A DNA stretch of 64,000 nt from Echinicola marina (lineage in GTDB: Bacteria > Bacteroidota > Bacteroidia > Cytophagales > Cyclobacteriaceae): NCBI RefSeq assembly GCF_020463795.1, contig NZ_CP080025.1:5225001-5289000 (forward strand), given 5' to 3'. The notes under the pieces were generated by a model. That model saw only the letters and a list, made by a program, of their open reading frames with translations, was not told the DNA's origin and did no database searches. Each line of letters opens with the position of its first letter. Position 1 is the stretch's first letter. The position numbers were made by a program, and so were the translations under genes. Below are positions 1,005-48,128 of the stretch, piece after piece.

Positions 1005-1775
1005 TTATAGTTTTCTAATTTTAATGTTTTTATACCAAGTTTTAGCACCATGGTCCTGCAACCCTATATAACCAGACTTTGCCTCTCCATAATCAGGGTA
1101 ATCTTTCCACTTACCTTCAGACTTTCTTTGCTTCCAGTCATCAGACCAAGGATCAAAAGAAACGGTTTTCTTACCATTCAAGAAATACTCCGCCTTGTCT
1201 TCAGTAAAAACAATTCTGGTAGTATTCCATTCACCAGCAGGCTTTACAGCACCTTCAAAATCCGGAGTATACATACCGTAATCAGCACCGATTGATTGCC
1301 ACATCTCTAATTTTTGAGGAAAACCGATTTGATCAATCACCTGATATTCCGGAGCTGTATAATAAGGTGCCTTATGTTTTTCTTCGTCCACAATATGGTA
1401 GAAGATACCACTATTACCTCCCTCAGCAATTTTCCATTCCAATTTCAACTCAAATTCACCGAATTCCTCAGCACCATACACCACGTCTCCTCCAATATCA
1501 CCGCCTTTTCCAAGTGCTACAAACAATTCATCTTCAATTATCCATCCAGCAGGCAATTCTTTGGCTGCATATCCCCTCCAACCCTCTGCACTTTTTCCAT
1601 CAAACAACAATTGCCATCCTTCAGACTTTTCTTCTTCCGTCAAGGCATTTACTGCAGCGACTTCTTCCGTAACTGCTACTTCAACAACTTCAGCTTCAGT
1701 GGCACTTTCTTTACCACCTCCGCATGCAGACAATACTGCTGCAAGGGCAAAAATACTTAGTGTTTTCTTTTTCAT
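1005..1775 (-). CDS. DUF1080 lipoprotein (3-keto-disaccharide hydrolase-like)
   Basis: A 256-residue protein with a type II signal peptide: the lipobox LSAC puts the lipidated cysteine at residue 18, followed by GGG. An acidic, Ala/Glu/Val-rich linker (about 23-50) leads into a DUF1080 domain containing LLFDGKSAEGWRG, GGNSGIFYHI and the C-terminal IGLQDHGAKTWYKNIKIRKL. It should sit on the periplasmic or outer-surface leaflet. It lies 12 bases after the Gfo/Idh/MocA gene and 2 bases before a second DUF1080 gene, in one operon. Family knowledge suggests cleavage or elimination of oxidised (3-keto) glycosides. The two DUF1080 proteins differ in length and anchoring, which may give different substrates or locations. 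Confidence 0.87.
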   Translation of the reverse strand: MKKKTLSIFALAAVLSACGGGKESATEAEVVEVAVTEEVAAVNALTEEEKSEGWQLLFDGKSAEGWRGYAAKELPAGWIIEDELFVALGKGGDIGGDVVYGAEEFGEFELKLEWKIAEGGNSGIFYHIVDEEKHKAPYYTAPEYQVIDQIGFPQKLEMWQSIGADYGMYTPDFEGAVKPAGEWNTTRIVFTEDKAEYFLNGKKTVSFDPWSDDWKQRKSEGKWKDYPDYGEAKSGYIGLQDHGAKTWYKNIKIRKL

Positions 1776-1787
1776 ATTTAATTGAGT

Positions 1788-3134
1788 TTAAACTATTTTC
1801 ATATTTACTGGATCCCATTTGATAAACTTATCCTCAAACAAGCTATCATTACAAAGTAAAGCCGGAGCAGCTGCCCTAAAGCCAAATACGGGATCCTCCA
1901 CTACCGTGCCACCATTCCTGATCGCGCCAAAGAAATTAGAAAAATGATCATAATGAGCTCCCTTATATTCTTTTTCTGCTTTGTAAACCATCTCCCTTGG
2001 CGGAACTATTTCAGCCCTCTTCTCTTCAACGTCCCCGTTAAGCCTTGCCTGAGCTGCTAAAAACGGATCATCACCCACATCATTGCTGTTAAGCTTTACT
2101 ACCACTTCTTCCCATTTCACATCCATGGACCCCTTTGTCCCCACAATTCTAAGATAGGTAGTCCCACTGGTACCATCCTTAAAATTACATCTTAATGAAA
2201 GATTAAAACCAGGATGCTGCTCGGATTCGGGATAATCAAATGTACCTAATAATACATCCGGCACCTCACGACCATCTTTCCAATATCTCAATCCTCCCAT
2301 AGAGGAAATCTTGGTAGGCCCTAAGGAATTTGTAATATAATGTAAGCTCGAAAACAAGTGAACAAACAAATCACCAGACATACCTGTACCATAATCCCTG
2401 TAGTTTCTCCATCTAAAGAACCTCAACGGATCCCAATCTCTCTTTTTGGTGTTGGAAACAAACTTATCCCAGTCTACAGTGGATTCATCTCCATCTTCAG
2501 GCACATGATACTGCCATGCACCTGCAGCTGAATTTCTAGCCCAGAAACCTTCTGCATAAATTATATCGCCAATTGCCCCCTCAGCCAATAACTCCCGGGC
2601 TTTTTCATTCCCCAATGACGAAAGCCCCTGACTTCCCACCATAAATATCTTGCCTGATTTCTTCCATGCATCAATAACCTCATGGCCTTCCTCTACTGAA
2701 TGTACCATTGGTTTTTCACAGTAGACATGTTTTCCTGCTTTCAATGCGTCTATACTGATCTGTTTGTGCCAATGATCTGGGGTTCCGATAATCACCGCAT
2801 CAATATCTTTACGCTTCAGGATATCTTTATAATCCATGGTAGTGTATAAATGATCACCCCATTTCTTTTTGGCACTTTCTAACCTTCCTTGGTAAAGGTC
2901 ACAAACAGCTAACATCTTTACATTAGGAGTTTGAAGCGCTGTATTCATATCTTCGGTTCCCATTCCACCAGCACCAATTAACGCTACATTAATAGTCTTC
3001 CCGGCAAAATCCTCCCCAGCTCTTTTAATGATGTCAAACTTTTTATTTTCCTCAGCGAAAACCATAGGTGCCACTGCAGCAGAAGCCCCAGCCAACCCTA
3101 GCTTCTTGAGGAAAAACCTTCTATTATTCTTCAT
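1788..3134 (-). CDS. Gfo/Idh/MocA family oxidoreductase with Tat signal
   Basis: A 448-residue NAD(P)-type sugar oxidoreductase. The N-terminus has a twin-arginine signal (RRFFLKK at residues 5-11, then a hydrophobic Ala-rich stretch ending near AEE), so it is exported folded with its cofactor. The Rossmann fold shows GAGGMG (54-59), and the family signature EKP lies at 140-142; the remainder fits the GFO_IDH_MocA C-terminal domain. It is the first gene of the operon with the two DUF1080 genes. The likely role is oxidation of a sugar, for example at carbon 3, so that the DUF1080 partner can release it. The length (about 450) is usual for the Tat-exported subgroup in Bacteroidota. The exact sugar is unknown. 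Confidence 0.9.
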   Translation of the reverse strand: MKNNRRFFLKKLGLAGASAAVAPMVFAEENKKFDIIKRAGEDFAGKTINVALIGAGGMGTEDMNTALQTPNVKMLAVCDLYQGRLESAKKKWGDHLYTTMDYKDILKRKDIDAVIIGTPDHWHKQISIDALKAGKHVYCEKPMVHSVEEGHEVIDAWKKSGKIFMVGSQGLSSLGNEKARELLAEGAIGDIIYAEGFWARNSAAGAWQYHVPEDGDESTVDWDKFVSNTKKRDWDPLRFFRWRNYRDYGTGMSGDLFVHLFSSLHYITNSLGPTKISSMGGLRYWKDGREVPDVLLGTFDYPESEQHPGFNLSLRCNFKDGTSGTTYLRIVGTKGSMDVKWEEVVVKLNSNDVGDDPFLAAQARLNGDVEEKRAEIVPPREMVYKAEKEYKGAHYDHFSNFFGAIRNGGTVVEDPVFGFRAAAPALLCNDSLFEDKFIKWDPVNMKIV

Positions 3135-3977
3135 GAGACATATTATTTAAAATCTAAGGACATAAATATAATATTTTCACATATATATTTTAAGTTATAC
3201 TATTTTTTTTATTAATATATCTTTCCAATGGTTACATTCAGTGATGACCGTGAGTGTGTTATAGCACTACTTATAAAAGTATATAGCATTAGCTTCTTAT
3301 AAGTTAACCACTGCGTCATTTAATCCGGAATTAAATACTATTTGAAAAGCTTGAAAAATAGTTGATCACTGAAATGCACAAGATTAAATCACATAAAAAT
3401 CCTCCCACCTTTAACTCTACACAATTAATAGCAAAAAGATCCTAACAGCTCAAACCTGAGGTCCTTATTATTTATTTTGTCCGATGATCCGCTATGGTGC
3501 CAGTAGCAGTTACAAACCAAACCAATCAGCTCCTTAATGGTTGGAAAAATATTGACCTATCTCCATAACAGAAAGAAGAGAGCTTAAGCTGCATCTAGCT
3601 AAAATACTGAATGGTATGTTTCCTAACTTTGCTAGGACTTAAGGTGTAGATTTCCCTAAGTTCCTATTAAGAAAAACACAGCTAAAACACGGGATAAACA
3701 CGGCTTAACTAGGGGTTAAATACGGGTTAAACCATGAACGTTAAAAATGTTAAATTCAATCAATATGGACCAATTTCACACCAGTCACTTGACAGTCAAG
3801 AGATTTCCCATTGATTCCACGGATATACCGAGCGGACAGATAGGTATAATCAATCATTTCTGTTAGAGCCGTACTATTTGGAGATAATGTTTTGAAGTGT
3901 AAAATATACTGGTCTAGTAGAGGAAATATAACTTATATTAAAAGATTCAAATAATTGTAAAATTAAGTCAAATGGAC
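3135..3977. other. Intergenic region, 843 bp, with repeats but no gene seen
   Basis: AT-rich stretch between the Gfo/Idh/MocA operon and the XRE-S24 gene, both on the minus strand. No credible reading frame or RNA gene was found. It contains an inverted repeat ACTTATAA (3269-3276) and TTATAAGT (3297-3304), a run of about 11-bp direct repeats (3683-3745, listed separately) and a palindrome CTTGAC-A-GTCAAG (3788-3800). Confidence 0.6.
3683..3745. repeat. Degenerate about 11-bp direct repeats (TTAAACACGGG-like)
   Basis: Units beginning TAAA/TTAA and ending in CGGG or similar start at 3683, 3695, 3705, 3716, 3727 and 3741, a spacing of 10-14 bases, mostly 11. Examples are TAAACACGGC and TTAAATACGGG. 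The spacing is close to one helical turn and not a multiple of three, so it does not look like protein repeats. It could be a phased protein-binding array or a decayed simple repeat. Confidence 0.5.
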
Positions 3978-4745
3978 TTATTTACTTGGCAAAATAGCGT
4001 GTTTCAAGTCAGCAATCATGGCAGCTATATCTTCCAGTGAGGTTGTTTTGGACTTGTCCTTCGGATTAGGAAAATCGGTGCTAATAAACGCTTTAGCCTC
4101 CCAAACTTCCCTTACATCCTCTCCAGGGATCTCATATGGCTTGTAAAAATCGTTATCAGAAACCAGGAATAGCTTACCATTCTCTTCTAAGTAGTTAAAA
4201 ACTCTTTTATAAACAACTCCTTCCGTGTCAGTGACCAATATATAGGTGTTTCCACTTTTGATATCCGTCAGTTGTTCCACATAAGCCCCGATCACCACAG
4301 TACCAGAAGGCAAGGGAAGCATACTATCACCTTTGATTTCGAAAGCACGGTAAGTAACATTCTTATTCAAATTAGGCAAATGGAATTGGGGCAATTGCTG
4401 CATATATTCAGGATCTGCATATCCATTCAAATAACCTGCTGATGCTTTTTGAGGGACCATGGTGATATTTTCATTTTCCTCTTGGTCCAAAGATACAGTC
4501 AGGATCTTGATTTCCTTTTTCTGGGTTGCTCTCCTGCCCTTCTCCTCAATATCATGATACAATAGTTCATCCAAGGAAACAGAAAAAATATCCCCTATTA
4601 ATTTTAATGTAGTCAGCTTTGGCTCAGACCTTCCGTCCTCATATGCGGATATCATTGTACGTTTTATCCCCAATTGATCAGAAAGATTTTCTTGGGTCAT
4701 TTGCTTGGACTTCCTGAGATATTTTAAGTTTTTCCCTAAAACCAT
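3978..4745 (-). CDS. XRE-S24 self-cleaving repressor (LexA/CI-like)
   Basis: A 255-residue regulator with two domains. An XRE helix-turn-helix covers residues about 4-62 (MTQENLSDQLGIKRTMISAYEDG), and an S24 peptidase domain covers about 95-230. The serine of GDSM (S141) and the lysine of VYKRV (K180) fit the catalytic dyad, and an Ala-Gly pair in KASAGYL (A103-G104) lies where LexA and CI proteins cut themselves. All three elements needed for autocleavage are present, so induction by RecA filaments is plausible, though a chemical signal cannot be excluded. It lies 10 bases after a small gene of unknown function, in one transcript. Inverted repeats in the upstream promoter (5053-5067 and 5095-5115) are good candidates for its own operators. 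No DNA-repair or phage genes are adjacent. Confidence 0.88.
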   Translation of the reverse strand: MVLGKNLKYLRKSKQMTQENLSDQLGIKRTMISAYEDGRSEPKLTTLKLIGDIFSVSLDELLYHDIEEKGRRATQKKEIKILTVSLDQEENENITMVPQKASAGYLNGYADPEYMQQLPQFHLPNLNKNVTYRAFEIKGDSMLPLPSGTVVIGAYVEQLTDIKSGNTYILVTDTEGVVYKRVFNYLEENGKLFLVSDNDFYKPYEIPGEDVREVWEAKAFISTDFPNPKDKSKTTSLEDIAAMIADLKHAILPSK

Positions 4746-4755
4746 TGTCTACGAA

Positions 4756-5013
4756 TTATGCACTGTAAAGATAAAAATTATGATCGTCCCTCCAGTTATT
4801 TTTAAAGGAAAAACGATTGAGATCCATCCTTGATCTTTCCATCATTTCTATCCTTTCTCGTATTTCCTGAATCACATCCCCAACAGCCCTGTTACCAGTA
4901 ACTAACAAATAACCATATTTTGGATGAGCCTCATCATCTACATAAAATTTCACCTGATGGTTTCCCGAAGCTAACTGCTTACTTACGATCCTGATTTTTG
5001 CTGAAGTTGTCAT
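4756..5013 (-). CDS. Small hypothetical protein paired with the XRE-S24 repressor
   Basis: An 85-residue protein that I do not recognise. It has no signal peptide or membrane segment. Residues 5-40 look like alternating beta strands (KIRIVSKQLASGNHQVKFYVDDE, KYGYLLVTG), followed by a helix rich in Glu, Arg and Met (about 46-66), then an aromatic tail. It is the first gene in the transcript with the S24 repressor (10-base gap). The position, directly behind the presumed operators and ahead of the repressor, suggests that it modulates the repressor or is its co-regulated output. The start ATG is well placed about 25 bases after the predicted TACCTTAG box. Confidence 0.7.
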   Translation of the reverse strand: MTTSAKIRIVSKQLASGNHQVKFYVDDEAHPKYGYLLVTGNRAVGDVIQEIRERIEMMERSRMDLNRFSFKNNWRDDHNFYLYSA

Positions 5014-5038
5014 ATTCTATTCCTTTAATTTACTTTCA

Positions 5039-5069
5039 CTAAGGTAGCGTATGTTTATTAAATAAACAA
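5039..5069 (-). promoter_or_regulatory. Promoter of the XRE-S24 operon with overlapping palindrome
   Basis: On the minus strand TTG (5069 to 5067), a 20-base spacer and TACCTTAG (5046 to 5039) form a near-consensus Bacteroidota promoter. A palindrome, GTTTATT-A-AATAAAC (5053-5067), fills the spacer and touches the -33 box. A repressor bound there would block transcription, which fits autoregulation. Confidence 0.5.
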
Positions 5070-5094
5070 TACAGGGTTATTTATAAACACTAAA

Positions 5095-5115
5095 TTGAGA
5101 CATTAATTGTCTCAA
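5095..5115. promoter_or_regulatory. Perfect inverted repeat, candidate operator
   Basis: TTGAGACA (5095-5102) and TGTCTCAA (5108-5115) are exact reverse complements with a 5-base spacer. The site lies about 26 bases upstream of the predicted -33 box of the XRE-S24 operon and about 180 bases before the divergent TonB receptor gene. Its size and symmetry suit a dimeric XRE or S24 repressor. Binding is inferred, not shown. Confidence 0.5.
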
Positions 5116-5291
5116 AAATAAAAAAACAAACTATTATGGTGCATCAATATGACATCCACAGTTTCTTACCCTTCCTCCTCCTAAAGTATTTAGCCGAAAA
5201 TCAGTTTATTCGTCCATTAATCTAAAATCTTATCATAAACCCAACACTTTGAGGCCTATATCAGTTGATATATTATAAACCAAAGAACCAA

Positions 5292-7619
5292 ATGAACCTA
5301 TCTAGATCAATTTTTACGATTTTACTTTTCACTATCACGATGAGCTTACAGGCGCAAATAAGTCTGAAAGGGAGGATTGTTGATAATAATACCGATGAAC
5401 CATTACTTTTTGCCCAAGTCGCACTTTTTGAAGCGGGGACAGACAATAATATTACACACACACAGTCTGATGAAGATGGCTACTTCCAACTGGCAACTGA
5501 AAAAGGTAATTATGATGTTAAGATATTCCTTATTGGCTTTGAAGATAAAATACTAGATGATATAGACCTCCAAGCCAATAAAGATTTGGGGAAAATCACG
5601 CTCGTATCAGAAAACCAACAATTAAACGAGGTTGTAGTCAAGTCCAGTTCTATCCCTATGCGTACTGATGTAGAGGGAATTGTCATTACCCCAGAAAACA
5701 ATTTGGCCAATATTGGAGGAACCTTATTGGACCTACTGCGAAACACACCTTCAGTGAGTGTATCTGAGGATGGGTCCATCTCCCTAAGAGGAAGCTCTGC
5801 CACCAATGTTCTCATCAATGGCAGAAACTCTTCCTTGACAAAAAACTTGGATCAAATTCCGGCCAGTGCCATAGACCAAGTAAAGATCATCAATAATCCG
5901 AACGCAAGATATGATGCAGAAGCAGAAGGTGGCGTGATCAATATTATCCTGAAGAAGGGTGAAAATATGGGTACACATGGAGGAGCCGAAATCACTTATG
6001 GCACCAGAGATCGCTTAAACACAGGAGCTAGAATCAACCATACCACTGCCAAATTCAACGTTTATGCAGGTTATAACTACCGTAATTGGAAAGGTGTTGG
6101 AAATAGGTCTGTATTCAGGGAAATCTTTGAAGACAATGAATTGCTCAATCAAAACACAGCTTCCAGTGACAAACGGGTCAATCACAACCTCAACTATGGC
6201 GCTGATTATTATTTTGGCAAAAATTCCTTAAGCTACCAAGGTGTGTATTTTACTGGAGATGATTATGACAACAGGACGCTGTATTCCCAATTAACGGAGA
6301 AACCTACAGGGGACACTATCTTGGAATATATTAGAAAAAACAGCGAATCGGAAGCCGATGATGGATATGACAATGCTATGATTTATGAGAGGACCTTTGA
6401 TGACAAAAACAGGGAGTTTAAGATAAGCGTCAATAACTCCTACCAAAACCAATACAAAATCCAAAATATCGACATCTACAGGGATGCTTCAGAGGTCGTT
6501 CCAGAAAATCTCAATGGCAGACAGCAGGCCCTTACAGATGAAAAAAGGTACACTACCGTAGCCCAGGCTGATTATGTTCATCCCATTAATGAAAAGGTAA
6601 AACTGGAGATGGGGCTTAAATCTACTTTTAGAAAATTTGACAATGACTATAAGTTCTATGAGTTTTCGGAAAGCGAAAATGACTTTGTAGAAAATCCTGA
6701 TGTGAGTAATCACTTCCTTTACAAAGACAGGATTCAGGCAGCCTATTTTATCTATTCCAGAAGTTCAGAGAAATTTGACTACACACTGGGCACCAGAGCT
6801 GAACACACCCATGTGGAAGGACTATTATATAATACCAATGAACTTAATAAACAGGATTATCTCAATCTCTTTCCCAGTATTCAAACACTATATAAACTAG
6901 ATGACAAAAACTCCTTTAAATTCACCTATAGTCGCCGTATAGATAGACCAACAGCCTGGAGACTAAACCCATTTCCTGATATTACCGATTCGCTCAGCGT
7001 CCGAAGAGGTAATCCTGAGTTAGCACCAGAAATGATTGATTCCTTTGAAATTGGTCATATGGTCAACTTCGAAAACTCCAGTTTGACGACCAATCTGTTT
7101 TACAGACATACCAACGGTGTATTGGATTATATCACGGTAATTGAGGATGGAATTTCATATATGCAACCAGAAAATCTAAATTCTGGTACTGCTTACGGAG
7201 TAGAATTCATTGGAATTGCAGACATTACCGATTGGTGGAATATAAATGGTAGTATATCTGCATTTTACACCAAAGTAGACGGTTCCAATATAGGAGAAGA
7301 ATTTGTCAGCGATGGTTTTATGTTGGTTTCAAAAATCACAAGTAGCTTCAAATTACCATATGGATTGAATTTACAATTAGTAGGGGACTATGAATCTCCT
7401 GAAGTGGAAGCACAAGGAAAAGATTATGCTCGCTACAGTATGGATGCTACCTTGCTAAAGAATTTCTTTGAAGAAAAAGGAAGTCTATCCCTAAGTGTTA
7501 GAGATGTTTTCAATACCGCTAATTTTGGTGGCTATAACCGATCAAACCAGTTTTACCAAGAATTTAGAAACAATTGGGAAACTAGGATATTACTGATTAG
7601 TGCCAGATATAATTTTTAA
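5292..7619 (+). CDS. TonB-dependent outer-membrane receptor, carboxypeptidase-regulatory N-domain
   Basis: A 775-residue outer-membrane protein. The start at 5292 (ATG) is preferred over an in-frame TTG at 5265 because it opens directly into a signal peptide (MNLSRSIFTILLF, ending LQAQ). A CarboxypepD_reg-like domain follows (SLKGRIVDNNTDEPLLFAQV), then a plug domain (about 115-225, with LRGSSATNVLINGR) and a C-terminal barrel of the OMP_b-brl_3 type ending in an aromatic residue (SARYNF). There is no SusD partner, so it is a lone receptor; substrates of this subgroup include metal complexes, peptides and other compounds and cannot be named here. It diverges from the XRE-S24 operon and has its own terminator. 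Confidence 0.88.
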   Translation: MNLSRSIFTILLFTITMSLQAQISLKGRIVDNNTDEPLLFAQVALFEAGTDNNITHTQSDEDGYFQLATEKGNYDVKIFLIGFEDKILDDIDLQANKDLGKITLVSENQQLNEVVVKSSSIPMRTDVEGIVITPENNLANIGGTLLDLLRNTPSVSVSEDGSISLRGSSATNVLINGRNSSLTKNLDQIPASAIDQVKIINNPNARYDAEAEGGVINIILKKGENMGTHGGAEITYGTRDRLNTGARINHTTAKFNVYAGYNYRNWKGVGNRSVFREIFEDNELLNQNTASSDKRVNHNLNYGADYYFGKNSLSYQGVYFTGDDYDNRTLYSQLTEKPTGDTILEYIRKNSESEADDGYDNAMIYERTFDDKNREFKISVNNSYQNQYKIQNIDIYRDASEVVPENLNGRQQALTDEKRYTTVAQADYVHPINEKVKLEMGLKSTFRKFDNDYKFYEFSESENDFVENPDVSNHFLYKDRIQAAYFIYSRSSEKFDYTLGTRAEHTHVEGLLYNTNELNKQDYLNLFPSIQTLYKLDDKNSFKFTYSRRIDRPTAWRLNPFPDITDSLSVRRGNPELAPEMIDSFEIGHMVNFENSSLTTNLFYRHTNGVLDYITVIEDGISYMQPENLNSGTAYGVEFIGIADITDWWNINGSISAFYTKVDGSNIGEEFVSDGFMLVSKITSSFKLPYGLNLQLVGDYESPEVEAQGKDYARYSMDATLLKNFFEEKGSLSLSVRDVFNTANFGGYNRSNQFYQEFRNNWETRILLISARYNF

Positions 7620-41686: not shown

Positions 41687-42679
41687 TTATTCTTGGGCTG
41701 CAGCTTCAGCTTCTTTGGCCTCAGCTTTTTCTTTTCTTTTATGCGCCTTTCTCATGATCCAAGCATATTTCAAGGCTTCAAGATTTTCATTCAATAATTC
41801 TGTGGTTACCTCTGCATTGGCGAGGCTTTCTTTTATATAGGCTGCAAACTCCTCATCGTTCAAAAGCATACCAAGGGCATTGTCCGTGGAGTTTAACTTG
41901 CCGGTAGCCTGATTGATGTTGGAAGCTGCTAAAGATGCTTCATCGGTGGTTTTTTCCAATTTGGAGGCCGAGCTTTTCAAGCTGGCAAAGATGCTGGTAT
42001 CATTGGCCAGCTCATACATTAATGTTCCTTCTTTTTCTAAGCTGGAAGAAAACTCCTTAAGATCTGCAGTAAGTTGGTTACTATTTACGGCAGTTTGCTC
42101 TAAGTTGGCCATCATTTGTCTGAAGTTCTCAGCCAATAAACTATCTGTCAAGACTGCTCCTACTATGCCTTCTCCTTTAGCGATCTTTCCTGTAAGCACT
42201 TTTAAGTCATTCGTTATAGAGACTAAGTTTTCATTATTTTCTTGAAGGGTTTCCATCATACTATCCGTATCCAAAGGCATTATTGCCTCTAGCCGGTCCC
42301 CATCTTCAATTGCTGGCGCCTGGGTAGTTCCTCCATAAATGACAATGATTTTATTACCGATCAAACCATCTGAACTAATGGTAGCCTTGGAATCCTTTCG
42401 GATAAAGTCCTGGGTATTGGCATCCACATTCATTTCGATTTCCACTTGGGAATCTCCATAGAATCTAATTTTCGACACGGTACCGATTTTCACCCCAGAA
42501 AACCAAATATTATTCCCAGTCTGCAAACCTTCGACATCATCAAAAACGGCCTTCAGTTTGTAACTTTTTACAAAAACCTTTTGCTGGGCACCCAAGGTCA
42601 ATATTCCAGTTACCATAATAATGATCCCAATCAATACGAAGATCCCAACAATAACTGATTTTTTATTATCATTTCTCAT
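41687..42679 (-). CDS. mlaD: MlaD/MCE-family lipid-transport protein
   Basis: A 330-residue protein with a single N-terminal membrane helix (about 8-28) followed by an MCE domain (KLKAVFDDVEGLQTGNNIWFSGVKIGTVSKIRFYGDSQVEIEMNVD, about 42-86) and a long helical, coiled-coil region to residue 310. The end is Ala/Glu/Lys-rich. It is the periplasmic lipid-shuttling subunit of the Mla-type ABC system, with its ATPase and permease genes directly upstream. It overlaps the mlaF stop by 1 base. Gene symbols follow the family; the transported lipid and direction are not shown. Confidence 0.9.
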   Translation of the reverse strand: MRNDNKKSVIVGIFVLIGIIIMVTGILTLGAQQKVFVKSYKLKAVFDDVEGLQTGNNIWFSGVKIGTVSKIRFYGDSQVEIEMNVDANTQDFIRKDSKATISSDGLIGNKIIVIYGGTTQAPAIEDGDRLEAIMPLDTDSMMETLQENNENLVSITNDLKVLTGKIAKGEGIVGAVLTDSLLAENFRQMMANLEQTAVNSNQLTADLKEFSSSLEKEGTLMYELANDTSIFASLKSSASKLEKTTDEASLAASNINQATGKLNSTDNALGMLLNDEEFAAYIKESLANAEVTTELLNENLEALKYAWIMRKAHKRKEKAEAKEAEAAAQE

Positions 42680-43428
42680 TACACAATGAAATTATAGTCA
42701 TAAAATGATTTCACTCTTTGATCTTGAGGGTTATTGAAAACCTCCTCAAATTTTCCTTCAGCGCCAAACACGCCGTCCAATAATACTGCCACCCGGTCTC
42801 CTGTATCCTTTGCACAGGTCAAATCATGGGTAATGATGATAGAGGAAGTATTGAAATTTTCCCTCACCTCATTTATCAAGTTATTGATATCACTACAAGT
42901 AATTGGATCCAAGCCAGCAGTAGGCTCATCATAAAGCATGATTTCTGGCTTCAATATCAAGGTCCTTGCTATACCAATTCTCTTTCTCTGCCCACCAGAA
43001 AGTTCAGAGGGCATTTGGTTGATGGTTTGTAAAAGTCCTACGGCATCCAGCACTTCTTCAACCATCTTATTCTTTTCTCCTCTGCTCAGCCCCTTTACAT
43101 TCCTTACCAAAGGAAATTCAAGATTCTCCCTTACGGTCATGCTATCGTACAAGGCACTCGCTTGGAAGGAAAAACCAATTTTTAACCTTAGGTCATTCAA
43201 TTGCTTTGCAGTTAGGTTAGACACCTCATCTCCCAAAACATTCATGCTACCTTCATCTTGAGTAAGTAGCCCAACCATTATCTTGATCAAAACAGATTTA
43301 CCCGTACCTGATTTTCCTAAAACAACCACGTTCTCCCCTTTGTACAAATCAAGGTCCACCCCCATCAGTACATCCAAATCACCGAATGACTTCTTTAATC
43401 CTCTTACCTCTACTACTTTTTCTCTCAT
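42679..43428 (-). CDS. mlaF: Mla-type ABC transporter ATP-binding protein
   Basis: A 249-residue ABC ATPase. Walker A is GKSGTGKS (about 38-45), the signature is LSGGQRKR, Walker B is IMLYDEPTAGLDP and the switch His is in IIITHD. It belongs to the MlaF/Ttg2A group (MREKVVEVRGLKKSFGDLDVLMGVDLDLYKGENVVVLG). It lies 3 bases after the permease and overlaps mlaD by 1 base, in the order mlaE-mlaF-mlaD. It powers lipid movement between the inner and outer membranes. Confidence 0.94.
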   Translation of the reverse strand: MREKVVEVRGLKKSFGDLDVLMGVDLDLYKGENVVVLGKSGTGKSVLIKIMVGLLTQDEGSMNVLGDEVSNLTAKQLNDLRLKIGFSFQASALYDSMTVRENLEFPLVRNVKGLSRGEKNKMVEEVLDAVGLLQTINQMPSELSGGQRKRIGIARTLILKPEIMLYDEPTAGLDPITCSDINNLINEVRENFNTSSIIITHDLTCAKDTGDRVAVLLDGVFGAEGKFEEVFNNPQDQRVKSFYDYNFIV

Positions 43429-43431
43429 ATT

Positions 43432-44235
43432 TTATGACATTCTCAAAAAGTTCACGATCTGTAATGCCAACAATTCCTCTATGAAGATCAAGAACATGGC
43501 CAAAACCACCGCTGCATTGGCTGCCTTTCCTACCCCTTCTGTACCTTTGGAAGAATGATAACCTTTATAACAGCCCACAATCCCGATGGTAAAACCAAAA
43601 ACCAGGGACTTTATGATAGAAGAGAAGATATCCAAAAAGGAAATCGCCTCAAATACCTGAACAAAGAAAGTGTCTATACTCACCATTTCTTTACTGTGTA
43701 CGGATAAAAATGCACCCATCAGCGCAACAAAATCAGTGTACATCACCAAAATCGGAATCATAAAGGTGGAAGCCAACACTCGAGTCACCACCAAAAACTT
43801 AAAAGGATTGGTTGCAGATACCTCCATTGCATCTATCTGCTCAGTAACTTTCATGGAACCAATCTCCGCACCAATACTTGATCCCACTTTCCCCGCTGCT
43901 ATCAGCGCCGTCACTAAAGGCCCCATGGCCCTTACAATGGCAATGGAAATCAATGCTGGCAACCAGGATGTGGCGCCAAACTCCGATAGTGAGGGCCTAG
44001 ATTGATTGGTAAATACTATCCCAACGATAAAACCTGTAAGGGAAATCAAGGCCAAAGAATTATAGCCTATCTTATAGCATTGTCGGATTACTTCTTTAAA
44101 TTCATATGGAGGCAACCAAACCTCCACAAAGAACCTTTTGACAAAAGCAAAGGCATCCGTCAGCGCCAGCAGCATTTTATCTATCTTGGGACTTATGATA
44201 TTTTCGTTTTTACTTGATTTATCAGCCATAGACAT
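43432..44235 (-). CDS. mlaE: Mla-type ABC transporter permease
   Basis: A 267-residue permease of the MlaE family, with about five membrane segments and the core GFIVGIVFTNQSRPSLSEFGATSWLPALISIAIVRAMGPLVTALIAAGKVGSSIGAEIGSMKVTEQIDAMEVSATNP-type region spread over about 65-145. It is the first of the three mla genes; the gap to mlaF is 3 bases. Upstream (66 bases) is the 3' end of a disrupted DHp-receiver gene on the same strand, so mlaE may depend on that gene's promoter. Confidence 0.93.
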   Translation of the reverse strand: MSMADKSSKNENIISPKIDKMLLALTDAFAFVKRFFVEVWLPPYEFKEVIRQCYKIGYNSLALISLTGFIVGIVFTNQSRPSLSEFGATSWLPALISIAIVRAMGPLVTALIAAGKVGSSIGAEIGSMKVTEQIDAMEVSATNPFKFLVVTRVLASTFMIPILVMYTDFVALMGAFLSVHSKEMVSIDTFFVQVFEAISFLDIFSSIIKSLVFGFTIGIVGCYKGYHSSKGTEGVGKAANAAVVLAMFLIFIEELLALQIVNFLRMS

Positions 44236-44301: not shown

Positions 44302-45438
44302 TTATAGTATATCATTCAAAGCCTCTTTCTTTAAAGGTTTCGTCAAAAAACCACTTATCATATCATATTGTTTACATTTTTCTTCATCTCTAGGGTCTAT
44401 AGAAGAGGAAAGCATTTTAACATCCACATATATCCCTAATTCAACTAAATGGTCCAAAAATTCCCAGCCCTTCATTTCTGGCATATTGATATCCAACAAA
44501 AGCTGGTCCACAGAATTATGTTTGATCCATTCTAATGCTTCAACTGGATTATCAAAAAAGTACAAATCCAAATCAGGATTATACTTTAGGAGAATACGCT
44601 TATTGATCATGTGCTGCACCTTATCATCATCTATTATAAGGACGGATTTAACTTGATCTCTTTTAATTTTATCTGACATTTCTATCGTTAACTTCTCTCC
44701 GTTTAAAATATCATTCATCTTTCTTACTTCAATATCCAATTGCTCCGAAGATTGTCTAAGAAGCCCTATTACATCTCCTGATTTCTTTTCATTCGAATCA
44801 ATCAGATTAATGATCCCAAGTATATTCGAAAGCGGTCTTCTTAAGTTATGGGAATTTATAAATGAATACTTCTTCAATTGCTCGTTTTGTTTCCTCAGAT
44901 CCGCATTGAGCTGGGTCTTTTCTTTCAATGTTTTTCTCAAATCTGTATTATCCACAGCAGTGATAACGATTAGCTCCAAATCATCCATCCTAAGCGACAT
45001 TGTATAAAGATCAAGTTCCCTCAAGACGCCTTTATTATCCCTTACTTTCACATCCTGAATCAGGCAATTATCCTCCCTGAAAATTTGAATATTTTCTTCA
45101 TCTGTTAAAGGAAGGACCTCATTGAATTTCAGGCTATTTTTACCATTTTGTTCCGATTTAAAATATTGCTCCGCAATAAGGTTTACCGCATAAACCGTCT
45201 GCCCATCTTTACGGACCAACCATTTATAGATTGGACTATACCTGAACATGGAAAAATAACTACGCCATAGATTACGCTCCCTTTCCAATGCACGGTCCAC
45301 AAGAAAATAAATCAAGACGCCTGAAAGAATCACAAAGAAGACTGCCTTGAACACTTCCATCAAAATATACTTGGCCACACCAATCTCTTCTAAAACCTCC
45401 CCTAAATAAAGGGATGAAAAAGCTACCCAAGTACTTCC
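44302..45438 (-). pseudogene. Signalling gene (DHp-receiver), 3' part, disrupted by IS21
   Basis: The larger part of a gene cut by the IS21 element. Rejoining it to 48082-48128 gives one open frame of 392 residues from the ATG at 48128. The product has an N-terminal membrane region, a PAS-like region, a coiled coil, a DHp-type helix with the phosphoacceptor His (H211 in SHNLRRPL; H177 counted from the GTG at 45378) and a C-terminal receiver (IIDDD, D330 in LLDINMP, K381 in LTKP). There is no HATPase domain: the DHp helices run directly into the receiver. A GTG at 45378 could start a shorter 358-residue form that keeps one membrane helix, so some activity may remain. It lies 66 bases before mlaE. 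Confidence 0.9.
45434..45438. repeat. Target-site duplication of the IS21 element (left copy)
   Basis: CTTCC at 45434-45438 is repeated at 48082-48086, directly abutting the TG and CA ends of the element. Confidence 0.9.
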
Positions 45439-45528
45439 TGTATATTCCGATGATCTTGACCACCAATCCGGTCATCCTGACCACCCTTTCAATTAGGGTT
45501 TTCAGTTACCGTTTGGAGGCTGTTAAAG

Positions 45529-46254
45529 TTATTGTTTTTTTCTCATTGATTCTCCTTTTAGCTCGATTCTGTGTGCGGTGTGCACCAGTCTGTCGAGAAC
45601 AGCGTCGGCTATGGTACTGTCACCTATGGTTTCGAACCATTTTGTAACCGGAAGTTGTGATACCACTATTGTTGAAGCCCTTCCATGGCGGTCTTCTATG
45701 ATTTCAAGCAGGGCCATTCTTGCCATTTCATCCAGTTGCTGAATGCCGAAGTCATCCAGGATCAATAAATCCTGTTTTTCTATTCTCGCTATCTCTTTGA
45801 TATATGAGCCGTCAGCTTTCAGCATTTTGAGTTTCGGGAACAGCTTGGTGGTATTATAATATTGGGTTCTGACCCCTTGCATACAGGCTTGGTTTCCCAG
45901 GGCCGAAGCAATGTAGCTTTTGCCGGCCCCTGTTGCTCCTGTGATCAGTATGTTTTCTTTTCGTTTAATAAAGGACATATCAGCAAGTCTGAGGACCTGC
46001 ATTTTATCCAGCCCCCGGTTTGGAGAGAACTCAAGCTCTTCAACAGTGGCACTGTACCTGAACTTTGCCGTTTTGTACAGTCTGTTGATTTTCCTGTTCT
46101 CTCTTTCTTCCCATTCTGCCTGCAAGAGATGGTTTATAAGCTCTTCGGGATTGAGATCATGATGTTTGTTGCTGTCCAGAATGGTTTTGTATGCTTCCAT
46201 CATTCCGTGAAACTTCATTTTGGACATCTGGTTCAATGCGATGCTCTGTGTCAT
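45529..46254 (-). CDS. istB: IS21-family helper ATPase
   Basis: A 241-residue AAA+ protein of the IstB/DnaC group. Walker A is GATGAGKS (106-113) and Walker B is LILDDFG (164-170); the N-terminal helices (about 5-60, LNPEELINHLLQAEWEERENRKINRLYKTAKF) are typical. IstB selects the target and activates the IstA transposase. It starts 29 bases after the istA stop and belongs only to the mobile element. The whole IS has a higher GC content by eye than its surroundings. Confidence 0.95.
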   Translation of the reverse strand: MTQSIALNQMSKMKFHGMMEAYKTILDSNKHHDLNPEELINHLLQAEWEERENRKINRLYKTAKFRYSATVEELEFSPNRGLDKMQVLRLADMSFIKRKENILITGATGAGKSYIASALGNQACMQGVRTQYYNTTKLFPKLKMLKADGSYIKEIARIEKQDLLILDDFGIQQLDEMARMALLEIIEDRHGRASTIVVSQLPVTKWFETIGDSTIADAVLDRLVHTAHRIELKGESMRKKQ

Positions 46255-46283
46255 AATTGTGTGATCGGTTATATGTTTGATAA

Positions 46284-47831
46284 TTACCTGAAGCTTTCCG
46301 CTCCCCTTATGTTTTCGTGGTCAACTGATTTATCGGACTTGTTTTCAGTATCTAAAGGGATTGAATCCATCCCGCTGTTGAGTATTCTGGTGATGACCGA
46401 ATAATTATAAGTGTTGTAGTGTTTGGCACGTATTACTGCGTTTATGAGCCTTTCCCTGCCTGCCTTTTTATCATATCCCAAAATCCCCAGACAGCTTTTA
46501 TAGGCCTGTTCCGGATACGGGTAACTGTCGAGGATAACCTGTAAATAATGCCGGACTTCAGGATGTATCCCTTTTGCCCAGTTCAGGAAGAATTCAGGGT
46601 TCCAGTCACTTACAAACCTGTGGGCTGAAGGCATATGGTCCTGGACCGTAGTGTATCCGCGCTCCTTAAGGCTTCTTTTATGAAAAGCGATCCTTTCCCC
46701 ATCGTAGAAAACAGAAACGTAACTGGCTGAGTACACAACCTTGACTTTTTTGCCGATATACCTGTAGGGAATAGAATAATAATGGTTTTCAGGGTTCAGG
46801 GATATGTGGGAGGTTTTAGTGACGGTGGCATACTTGAACTGTTTGAGTTCATATCTTTCGGCAGGCAGGGGGGCCAGGGTTCCCTTTTCTTCCCTGTCGA
46901 AAAGCTCCTTCCTTGTTTCCGGTCTTTTCTGGAAAGGGGTATTGTTATGGATATTGAGGTAGTGCCGTATATCCGCATTCAGTGTATTGATGTCATGGTA
47001 AACTTTGTTTCTGAGCGGGGCGTATATCCTGCTGTAGACAATGCTGACGGTCTTTTCCACCAAGGCCTTGTCCTGCGGCTTCCTGCTCCTTGCCGGAAAG
47101 ACCACACAGCCGTAATGGTTGGCAAAGTCCAGGAAATCGGGGTTGATGGCCGGTTCATACTTGTCGGCTTTGGTGACCGCGCTTTTGAGGTTGTCGGGCA
47201 CCAGGGCCCTGGGAACACCGCCCAGGTAATGTAAAGCATTTTCAGTGGCTGCTATGAAGTCTTCTTTTCTTTGGGAGGGAATGGCTTCTACATAGCTGTA
47301 TTGACTGGCTCCGAGTGTGGCAACATACACTTCCAGATCAGTGAGTTCACCTGTTACAGGATCTACTATGGACAGCCTATCACCCGTAAAGTCTATATAG
47401 AATTTATCTCCCGGAACATGTTCAATTCTCATACTGGCAGATAGACCGGTACGCCACTGCCTGAAGCTTTCACAGAACTGTGAGTAACTGTATCCGTCAG
47501 GATGTTTTTGTCTGTATTCTCCCCACAGGACCCAACGGTTCACACCGGTCCGTTTAAGCTCCGGTTCCATATAGGGAAAAAAAGATATAAGCTCCTGGTA
47601 CCGCTCCCCTGAAACATGGTCCGGATCAGAAAGTAGGGCATCAAGCTCTTCGTCATTCATGGACAAAAGCTCTCCGTAAGAAAAACCTTTGGAATCAATC
47701 AGCTGAAGGTACTTCTTGACCGTGTTCCGGGCAATTCCCAAGGTTTTGGAGATGGTCTGCAGTGCCATTCCGTTGTCACGGTGGCGAATTATCTGTTTGA
47801 GATTACTCATGGTTATCGTTTTTCCTGCCAT
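46284..47831 (-). CDS. istA: IS21-family transposase
   Basis: A 515-residue transposase. An N-terminal helix-turn-helix (LKQIIRHRDNGMALQTISKT at about 11-30) precedes a DDE integrase core with D147 in FYIDFTG, D213 in LVPDNLKSAV and E259 in KALVEKTVS. The C-terminal domain carries the usual SLNPENHYYSIPYRYIGKKVKV beta region. Length and order match complete IstA proteins, and no stop or frameshift is seen, so the protein should be functional. Confidence 0.95.
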   Translation of the reverse strand: MAGKTITMSNLKQIIRHRDNGMALQTISKTLGIARNTVKKYLQLIDSKGFSYGELLSMNDEELDALLSDPDHVSGERYQELISFFPYMEPELKRTGVNRWVLWGEYRQKHPDGYSYSQFCESFRQWRTGLSASMRIEHVPGDKFYIDFTGDRLSIVDPVTGELTDLEVYVATLGASQYSYVEAIPSQRKEDFIAATENALHYLGGVPRALVPDNLKSAVTKADKYEPAINPDFLDFANHYGCVVFPARSRKPQDKALVEKTVSIVYSRIYAPLRNKVYHDINTLNADIRHYLNIHNNTPFQKRPETRKELFDREEKGTLAPLPAERYELKQFKYATVTKTSHISLNPENHYYSIPYRYIGKKVKVVYSASYVSVFYDGERIAFHKRSLKERGYTTVQDHMPSAHRFVSDWNPEFFLNWAKGIHPEVRHYLQVILDSYPYPEQAYKSCLGILGYDKKAGRERLINAVIRAKHYNTYNYSVITRILNSGMDSIPLDTENKSDKSVDHENIRGAESFR

Positions 47832-47886
47832 GCTTTACGGTTGGTTTTAAATCAACCGTAAAGGAAACGATAACTGAAAAATTAAA

Positions 47887-48081
47887 GGTGGTCAATAATG
47901 TCATTCTGGCCATTCTGACCACTTAAAGTGGTGGTCAACATGGCCGGATTGACAGTGGTCAATATCACCGGAATTTTACCCTTCGACAAAAGTTGATACC
48001 CAGAAGGGGGGTGGTCAACATCATCGGAAAAAAGTGGTCAGCATCACTGGAACAGGTGGTCAACATGAATCGGAATATACA
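47887..48081 (+). repeat. Right-end IS21 terminal repeats (GTGGTCAACAT-like)
   Basis: Copies of about 20 bases begin at 47887, 47931, 47955, 48011, 48034 and 48056, each with a core GTGGTCAAnATnnnCGGAA. Two more lie on the opposite strand in the left end (about 45439-45487). They are probably transposase-binding sites. The last copy runs into the terminal inverted repeat that ends at 48081. Confidence 0.88.
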
Positions 48082-48086
48082 CTTCC
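48082..48086. repeat. Target-site duplication of the IS21 element (right copy)
   Basis: CTTCC, identical to 45434-45438. The pair defines the insertion point within the codons for Gly-Ser (GGA AGT on the minus strand) of the disrupted gene. Confidence 0.9.
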
Positions 48087-48128
48087 TATCAAAATATAAA
48101 TTAAGGGGATTCTATAACTAGATTTCAT
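48082..48128 (-). pseudogene. 5' fragment of the IS21-disrupted signalling gene
   Basis: From the ATG at 48128 the minus strand codes for MKSSYRIPLIYILIG in frame up to the insertion point, where it would continue as STWVAFSSLYLGEVLEEIG at 45433-45379 and then the 358-residue remainder. The frame is kept exactly (15 codons plus two bases on this side, one base plus 18 codons on the other before the GTG). An AGGA lies immediately upstream of the ATG, as a weak ribosome-binding site. Confidence 0.88.

Follow-up and report, generated by a model that had tools for sequence, protein, structure and literature searches.

An IS21-family element interrupts a conserved receiver gene upstream of mlaEFD in Echinicola marina

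Background

Has an insertion sequence in the chromosome of Echinicola marina broken a gene that its relatives keep whole and, if so, what gene is it and how long ago was it broken? The question is raised by a stretch of 64,000 nucleotides (contig NZ_CP080025.1, positions 5,225,001 to 5,289,000; hereafter the window, to which all positions below refer), in which an IS21 element had been predicted, from the letters alone, to lie between 44302 and 48128 inside a signalling gene.

The element and its boundaries

The element and its parts are as follows.

45439..48081, minus strand (transposition genes): complete IS21-family insertion sequence of 2643 bp, with seven chromosomal copies having the same boundaries and matches to the IstB and IstA families
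45439..45487, no strand: left element end, with the 13-bp terminal repeat and two TTGACCAC/CTGACCAC repeats
47885..48081, no strand: right element end, with the 13-bp terminal repeat and six TTGACCAC/CTGACCAC repeats
46284..47831, minus strand: istA, DDE transposase of 515 aa, in which D147, D213 and E259 align with the catalytic triad of IS5376 (PDB match)
45529..46254, minus strand: istB, AAA+ helper ATPase of 241 aa (PF01695, E 2.6e-68; Walker A GATGAGKS)
45434..45438, no strand: target duplication CTTCC, left copy, read from the bases
48082..48086, no strand: target duplication CTTCC, right copy, read from the bases

The original prediction had placed the element at 45439-48081, with TG...CA ends and a CTTCC duplication, and these coordinates are exact; the ends are not guessed, since the seven full-length chromosomal copies have precisely these boundaries. 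The terminal repeats, described beforehand as near-matching, turn out to open with the same 13 bases at both ends, TGTATATTCCGAT, and the two transposition genes are intact, as had been supposed, both with family matches. IstA aligns with the solved IS5376 transposase (E 1.2e-21), the three acidic residues included; the numbering of the catalytic residues of the latter is that given in PMC11208146. The element bears several marks of the IS21 family, namely istA and istB, TG...CA ends, multiple terminal repeats and a short target duplication. The G+C content of the element is 45%, that of the window 39%. Its near-identical copies suggest that the element is able to transpose.

The interrupted gene

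The gene lies in two pieces, one on each side of the element.

48082..48128, minus strand: 5' fragment, with the start codon (15 codons plus 2 bases), identified from orthologues
44302..45433, minus strand: 3' fragment, with the rest of the first predicted membrane helix (TM1), TM2 and the PAS-like, DHp-like and receiver parts, identified from orthologues and the model of an intact orthologue

When 48128-48082 is joined to 45433-44302, the element and one CTTCC being removed, 392 codons are read without a stop, so that the exact rebuild claimed for the frame and its 392-residue product holds; the same length is found in the two closest relatives. The insertion point follows the second base of codon 16. 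This lies within the first of the predicted membrane helices, which spans residues 6-33 of the orthologue model, in agreement with the predicted splitting of the first membrane segment. The closest named orthologues are those of E. salinicaeni (85%) and E. shivajiensis (79%). A whole-genome search finds the gene intact and adjoining mlaE in 10 out of 10 congeners, with products of 391-395 residues. All ten carry the rebuilt N-terminus, on whose presence in relatives the claim of disruption depended, and the two sides of the junction are homologous without a break in protein as well as in DNA (for example MKSSYRIPLIYILIGSTWVAFSS in E. salinicaeni); the proposed comparison with orthologues for the empty site returns a whole gene next to mlaE in each of the ten congeners searched.

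In E. marina, the 5' stub now encodes 22 residues and then meets a stop inside the element, and, read from the element into the 3' part, the frame offers no start codon before the GTG at 45378; the full-length protein is probably no longer made. As to a possible compensating paralogue, among the best four of 14 matches in the same genome all except the gene itself cover the receiver part only.

There is very little doubt, then, about the course of events: IstA and IstB put a complete IS21-family element, recently multiplied to seven copies in this chromosome, into codon 16 of a membrane PAS-DHp-receiver gene that is conserved in the genus and lies just upstream of mlaEFD. The insertion left a 5-bp duplication, and it parted the body of the gene from its start codon, from the upstream sequence and from half of the first membrane segment.

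Domain make-up of the gene product

The window's 3' part was aligned with 19 intact relatives (20 proteins in total; Pfam matches at E up to 0.1). The receiver (PF00072) is present in all 20, PAS families are matched in some of them, and HisKA in nine (E up to 0.1; best E 3.7e-5); in L009 and the window protein, HisKA falls short of the Pfam cut-off. H211 is invariant in 20/20, as are D285, D286, D330 and K381 of the receiver. No HATPase (CA) domain was found in any of the 20 at E up to 0.1, none of the 17 families matched by these members being HATPase; an ordinary histidine kinase is rejected on this ground.

For the intact protein of E. salinicaeni, the model contains helices at 6-33 and 38-80, then a PAS-like domain (85-177), a helical hairpin (179-268) and, coming directly after the hairpin, a receiver (279-391); the placement of the domains is uncertain, given a pTM of 0.41 and a mean pLDDT of 78. 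Searched with Foldseek, the model comes closest to PAS-type sensor kinases, to receivers and to PAS domains. Taken together, the gene product is a putative membrane protein with two predicted helices, a PAS-like domain, a DHp-like hairpin and a receiver, devoid of a kinase domain of its own. The label of signalling gene has to be refined in two respects: the kinase catalytic domain is absent, and the gene lies directly upstream of mlaEFD. No direct precedent for CA-less DHp-receiver proteins was found among the listed papers of one open-licence library.

Two multi-PAS proteins from the same order (L051:1462-3444 and L052:334-2181), inspected by eye, seemingly end in an H-box hairpin followed directly by a receiver, with no kinase domain, so that proteins built in this way may occur more widely in that order.

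Linkage to the Mla genes

Three genes, whose names mlaE, mlaF and mlaD we take from their sequence type, follow the interrupted gene.

43432..44235, minus strand: mlaE-like permease gene, directly downstream on the same strand and a neighbour in 41/41 locus rows
42679..43428, minus strand: mlaF-like ATPase gene, identified by locus comparison
41687..42679, minus strand: mlaD-like MCE gene, identified by locus comparison

In each of the 41 locus rows compared (L009-L034, L036-L050), a relative of the interrupted gene is followed by relatives of mlaE and mlaF on the same strand. Six rows being duplicates, there are 35 distinct loci, and in all 35 a receiver gene, long or receiver-only, lies directly upstream of the mlaE and mlaF relatives. 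The long form (membrane-PAS-DHp-receiver) accounts for 25 of them, and the other ten (L028-L034, L047, L048, L050) match in the receiver only, with open frames 122-150 codons long. Collection of the loci went by the receiver gene alone, so that the mla genes had no part in their choice; weaker receiver matches fall mostly outside the count, which may thus miss homologues without mla neighbours. The upstream neighbours are less constant, the window's two upstream genes being undetected near L045. Such linkage points to a possible role in the regulation of Mla transport; the listed papers of one open-licence library yielded no direct precedent for an association of MlaE with response regulators.

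Residual function

The insertion is real, yet the function may be kept. The element and the interrupted gene run in the same direction, and no terminator-like site turned up on the minus strand when the stretch from istB to the gene was scanned, so that read-through from istAB may carry transcription into the 3' part and on into the mla genes. With in-frame start codons upstream of TM2 and a 3' frame that is open, a shortened protein could be translated from the GTG at 45378 or the ATG at 45360, anchored by TM2 only and retaining all cytosolic domains. Against this, the gene has been cut away from its normal start and its upstream sequence, and TM1 has been halved. Survival of function in such a shortened form is possible, if rather doubtful.

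Age of the insertion

The genome is a single contig of 5.69 Mb and holds seven full-length copies of the element, that of the window included; four of the others are identical to the window copy and two differ from it by one base each (two substitutions in total). In a family-wide search of 295 genomes (two candidates scored per genome, E up to 1e-50), matches were retrieved from seven genomes; one is E. marina itself, and the matches in the other six are partial, at 67-88% identity. At the genus level, where up to 27 candidates were scored per genome (some first-look candidates of G002, G003 and G009 remaining unscored), no full or near-identical copy was found in 10/10 congeners. Five of these show short matches to other IS21-type elements, of at most about 420 bases and 64-83% identity, and the remaining five no match at all.

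The six other near-identical full copies, along with the lack of any such copy in the ten congeners, speak for a recent spread; judged from these sequences, the element looks like a recent arrival or expansion in the window lineage. The 3' frame is also still open, and the original wording of a probably recent insertion is accordingly retained.

An old insertion, in a gene already under relaxed selection beforehand, finds some encouragement in the residue changes unique to each lineage in the 3' fragment; when E. shivajiensis serves as outgroup, 28 of these fall in the window lineage and 13 in that of E. salinicaeni (p 0.019). However, the six neighbouring genes, pooled, give 73 vs 58 by the same count, a ratio that is not significantly different (Fisher p 0.20); moreover, the 3' fragment runs over 376 codons without a stop or frameshift, and the element copies are nearly identical. 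The dN/dS between the 3' fragment and E. salinicaeni is 0.06, but dS is saturated. With an undecayed frame and an excess that is not significant against the neighbouring genes, great age is improbable and was rejected in favour of a recent insertion. Lastly, seven near-identical repeats of 2.6 kb could mislead an assembler into placing a copy at the wrong site, an artefact that is barely credible here given a one-contig assembly and a perfect duplication distinct from those of the other six copies, the seven carrying differing duplications.

Length of the target duplications

At the seven sites of the window element, the duplications measure 5, 5, 6, 4, 7, 5 and 4 bp. A second IS21-type element on the same chromosome, with two copies 94.7% identical (L087:1049-3580 and L088), has left duplications of 7 and 5 bp. 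The survey took in the window element (L001-L007), this second type (L087, L088) and five elements from three congeners (L116-L142); in these four Echinicola genomes, 32 of 36 sites were resolved, with 4 bp at two sites, 5 bp at 15, 6 bp at four and 7 bp at 11. The length of the duplication, mostly 5 or 7 bp, hence varies even among near-identical IS21-type copies.

Four sites were dropped: one end could not be located in L116, L136 and L142, and L121 has both ends but shows no duplication; L116 and L121 overlap, two elements lying side by side. The ends of three elements were taken as the pair that gives the most duplication-bearing copies, and those of the other two were set by hand, a choice that favours the finding of duplications, not of any given length. 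Chance is rejected as their source, for each of the 32 resolved sites has flanks that agree over 4-7 bp, whereas abutting matches of at least 4 bp occur in 11 of 992 mismatched left/right pairs.

Duplications of 4-8 bp are the range of the IS21 family as a whole, and the variation described here may for this reason already be familiar to specialists; no direct precedent concerning IS21 duplication length was found among the listed papers of one open-licence library. According to work cited in PMC10122671, IstB is required for correct duplications.

The sites of other copies offer some observations of their own. The copy in L006 (element 1501-4145) sits in a prokaryotic Argonaute gene, the left piece of which covers 1-102 of the pAgo_I profile and the right piece 110-455; the adjoining gene matches an Argonaute-associated nuclease-type family. 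The copy in L003 (element 1501-4143) sits in an IS110-type transposase gene, IS110 families matching both flanks. In L004, an open frame running into the element copy (4149-4445) bears a weak resemblance to a zeta-toxin family (E 3.2e-4, under the cut-off), and in L002 an unbroken UG5 defence-type reverse transcriptase gene (4517-5641) starts about 370 bases from the element copy.

Significance

As an event, the insertion is an ordinary kind of gene disruption, cleanly documented. The by-products are of greater interest, namely a conserved receiver gene at the head of the Mla genes, and duplications of 4-7 bp left by near-identical copies of one IS21 element. The insertion marks a receiver protein that this strain has probably lost by natural means and that is retained in its relatives beside the Mla lipid-transport genes, and comparing the strain with these relatives would therefore be an easy first test of the role of that protein, whose family deserves attention in its own right. 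Likewise, the seven near-identical copies form a clean series of differing duplication lengths, which bears on how the IstB helper spaces the two cuts.

A wider proposal may be advanced, tentatively and with the odds rather against it as a whole: that a receiver family, membrane PAS-DHp-receiver or receiver-only according to genus, heads mlaEFD across the Cyclobacteriaceae and, itself lacking a kinase domain, regulates Mla lipid transport by phosphorelay; that this strain is a natural knockout; and that the IS21 element cuts its target with a flexible spacing of 4-7 bp.

Comparison with known systems

The product of the interrupted gene is akin to hybrid histidine kinases and response regulators in its PAS-like domain, its H-box-like hairpin with an invariant His, and its receiver with invariant Asp and Lys; unlike hybrid histidine kinases, its family is without the HATPase catalytic domain in 20/20 aligned proteins (E up to 0.1). 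Spo0B and ChpT are phosphotransfer proteins with a DHp-type hairpin. Compared by description, the interrupted gene's product shares with them a DHp-like hairpin and the lack of a working kinase in the same chain, and differs in being apparently membrane-anchored and fused to a receiver.

The element itself is close in plan to IS5376, of the IS21 family, which, as described in PMC10122671, likewise has istA and istB, TG...CA ends, multiple terminal repeats 21-24 bp apart near the ends and direct target repeats. It departs from IS5376 in the length of these target repeats: the ten in-vitro insertions of IS5376 described in that paper all carry duplications of 5 bp, whereas the seven of the Echinicola element range from 4 to 7 bp.
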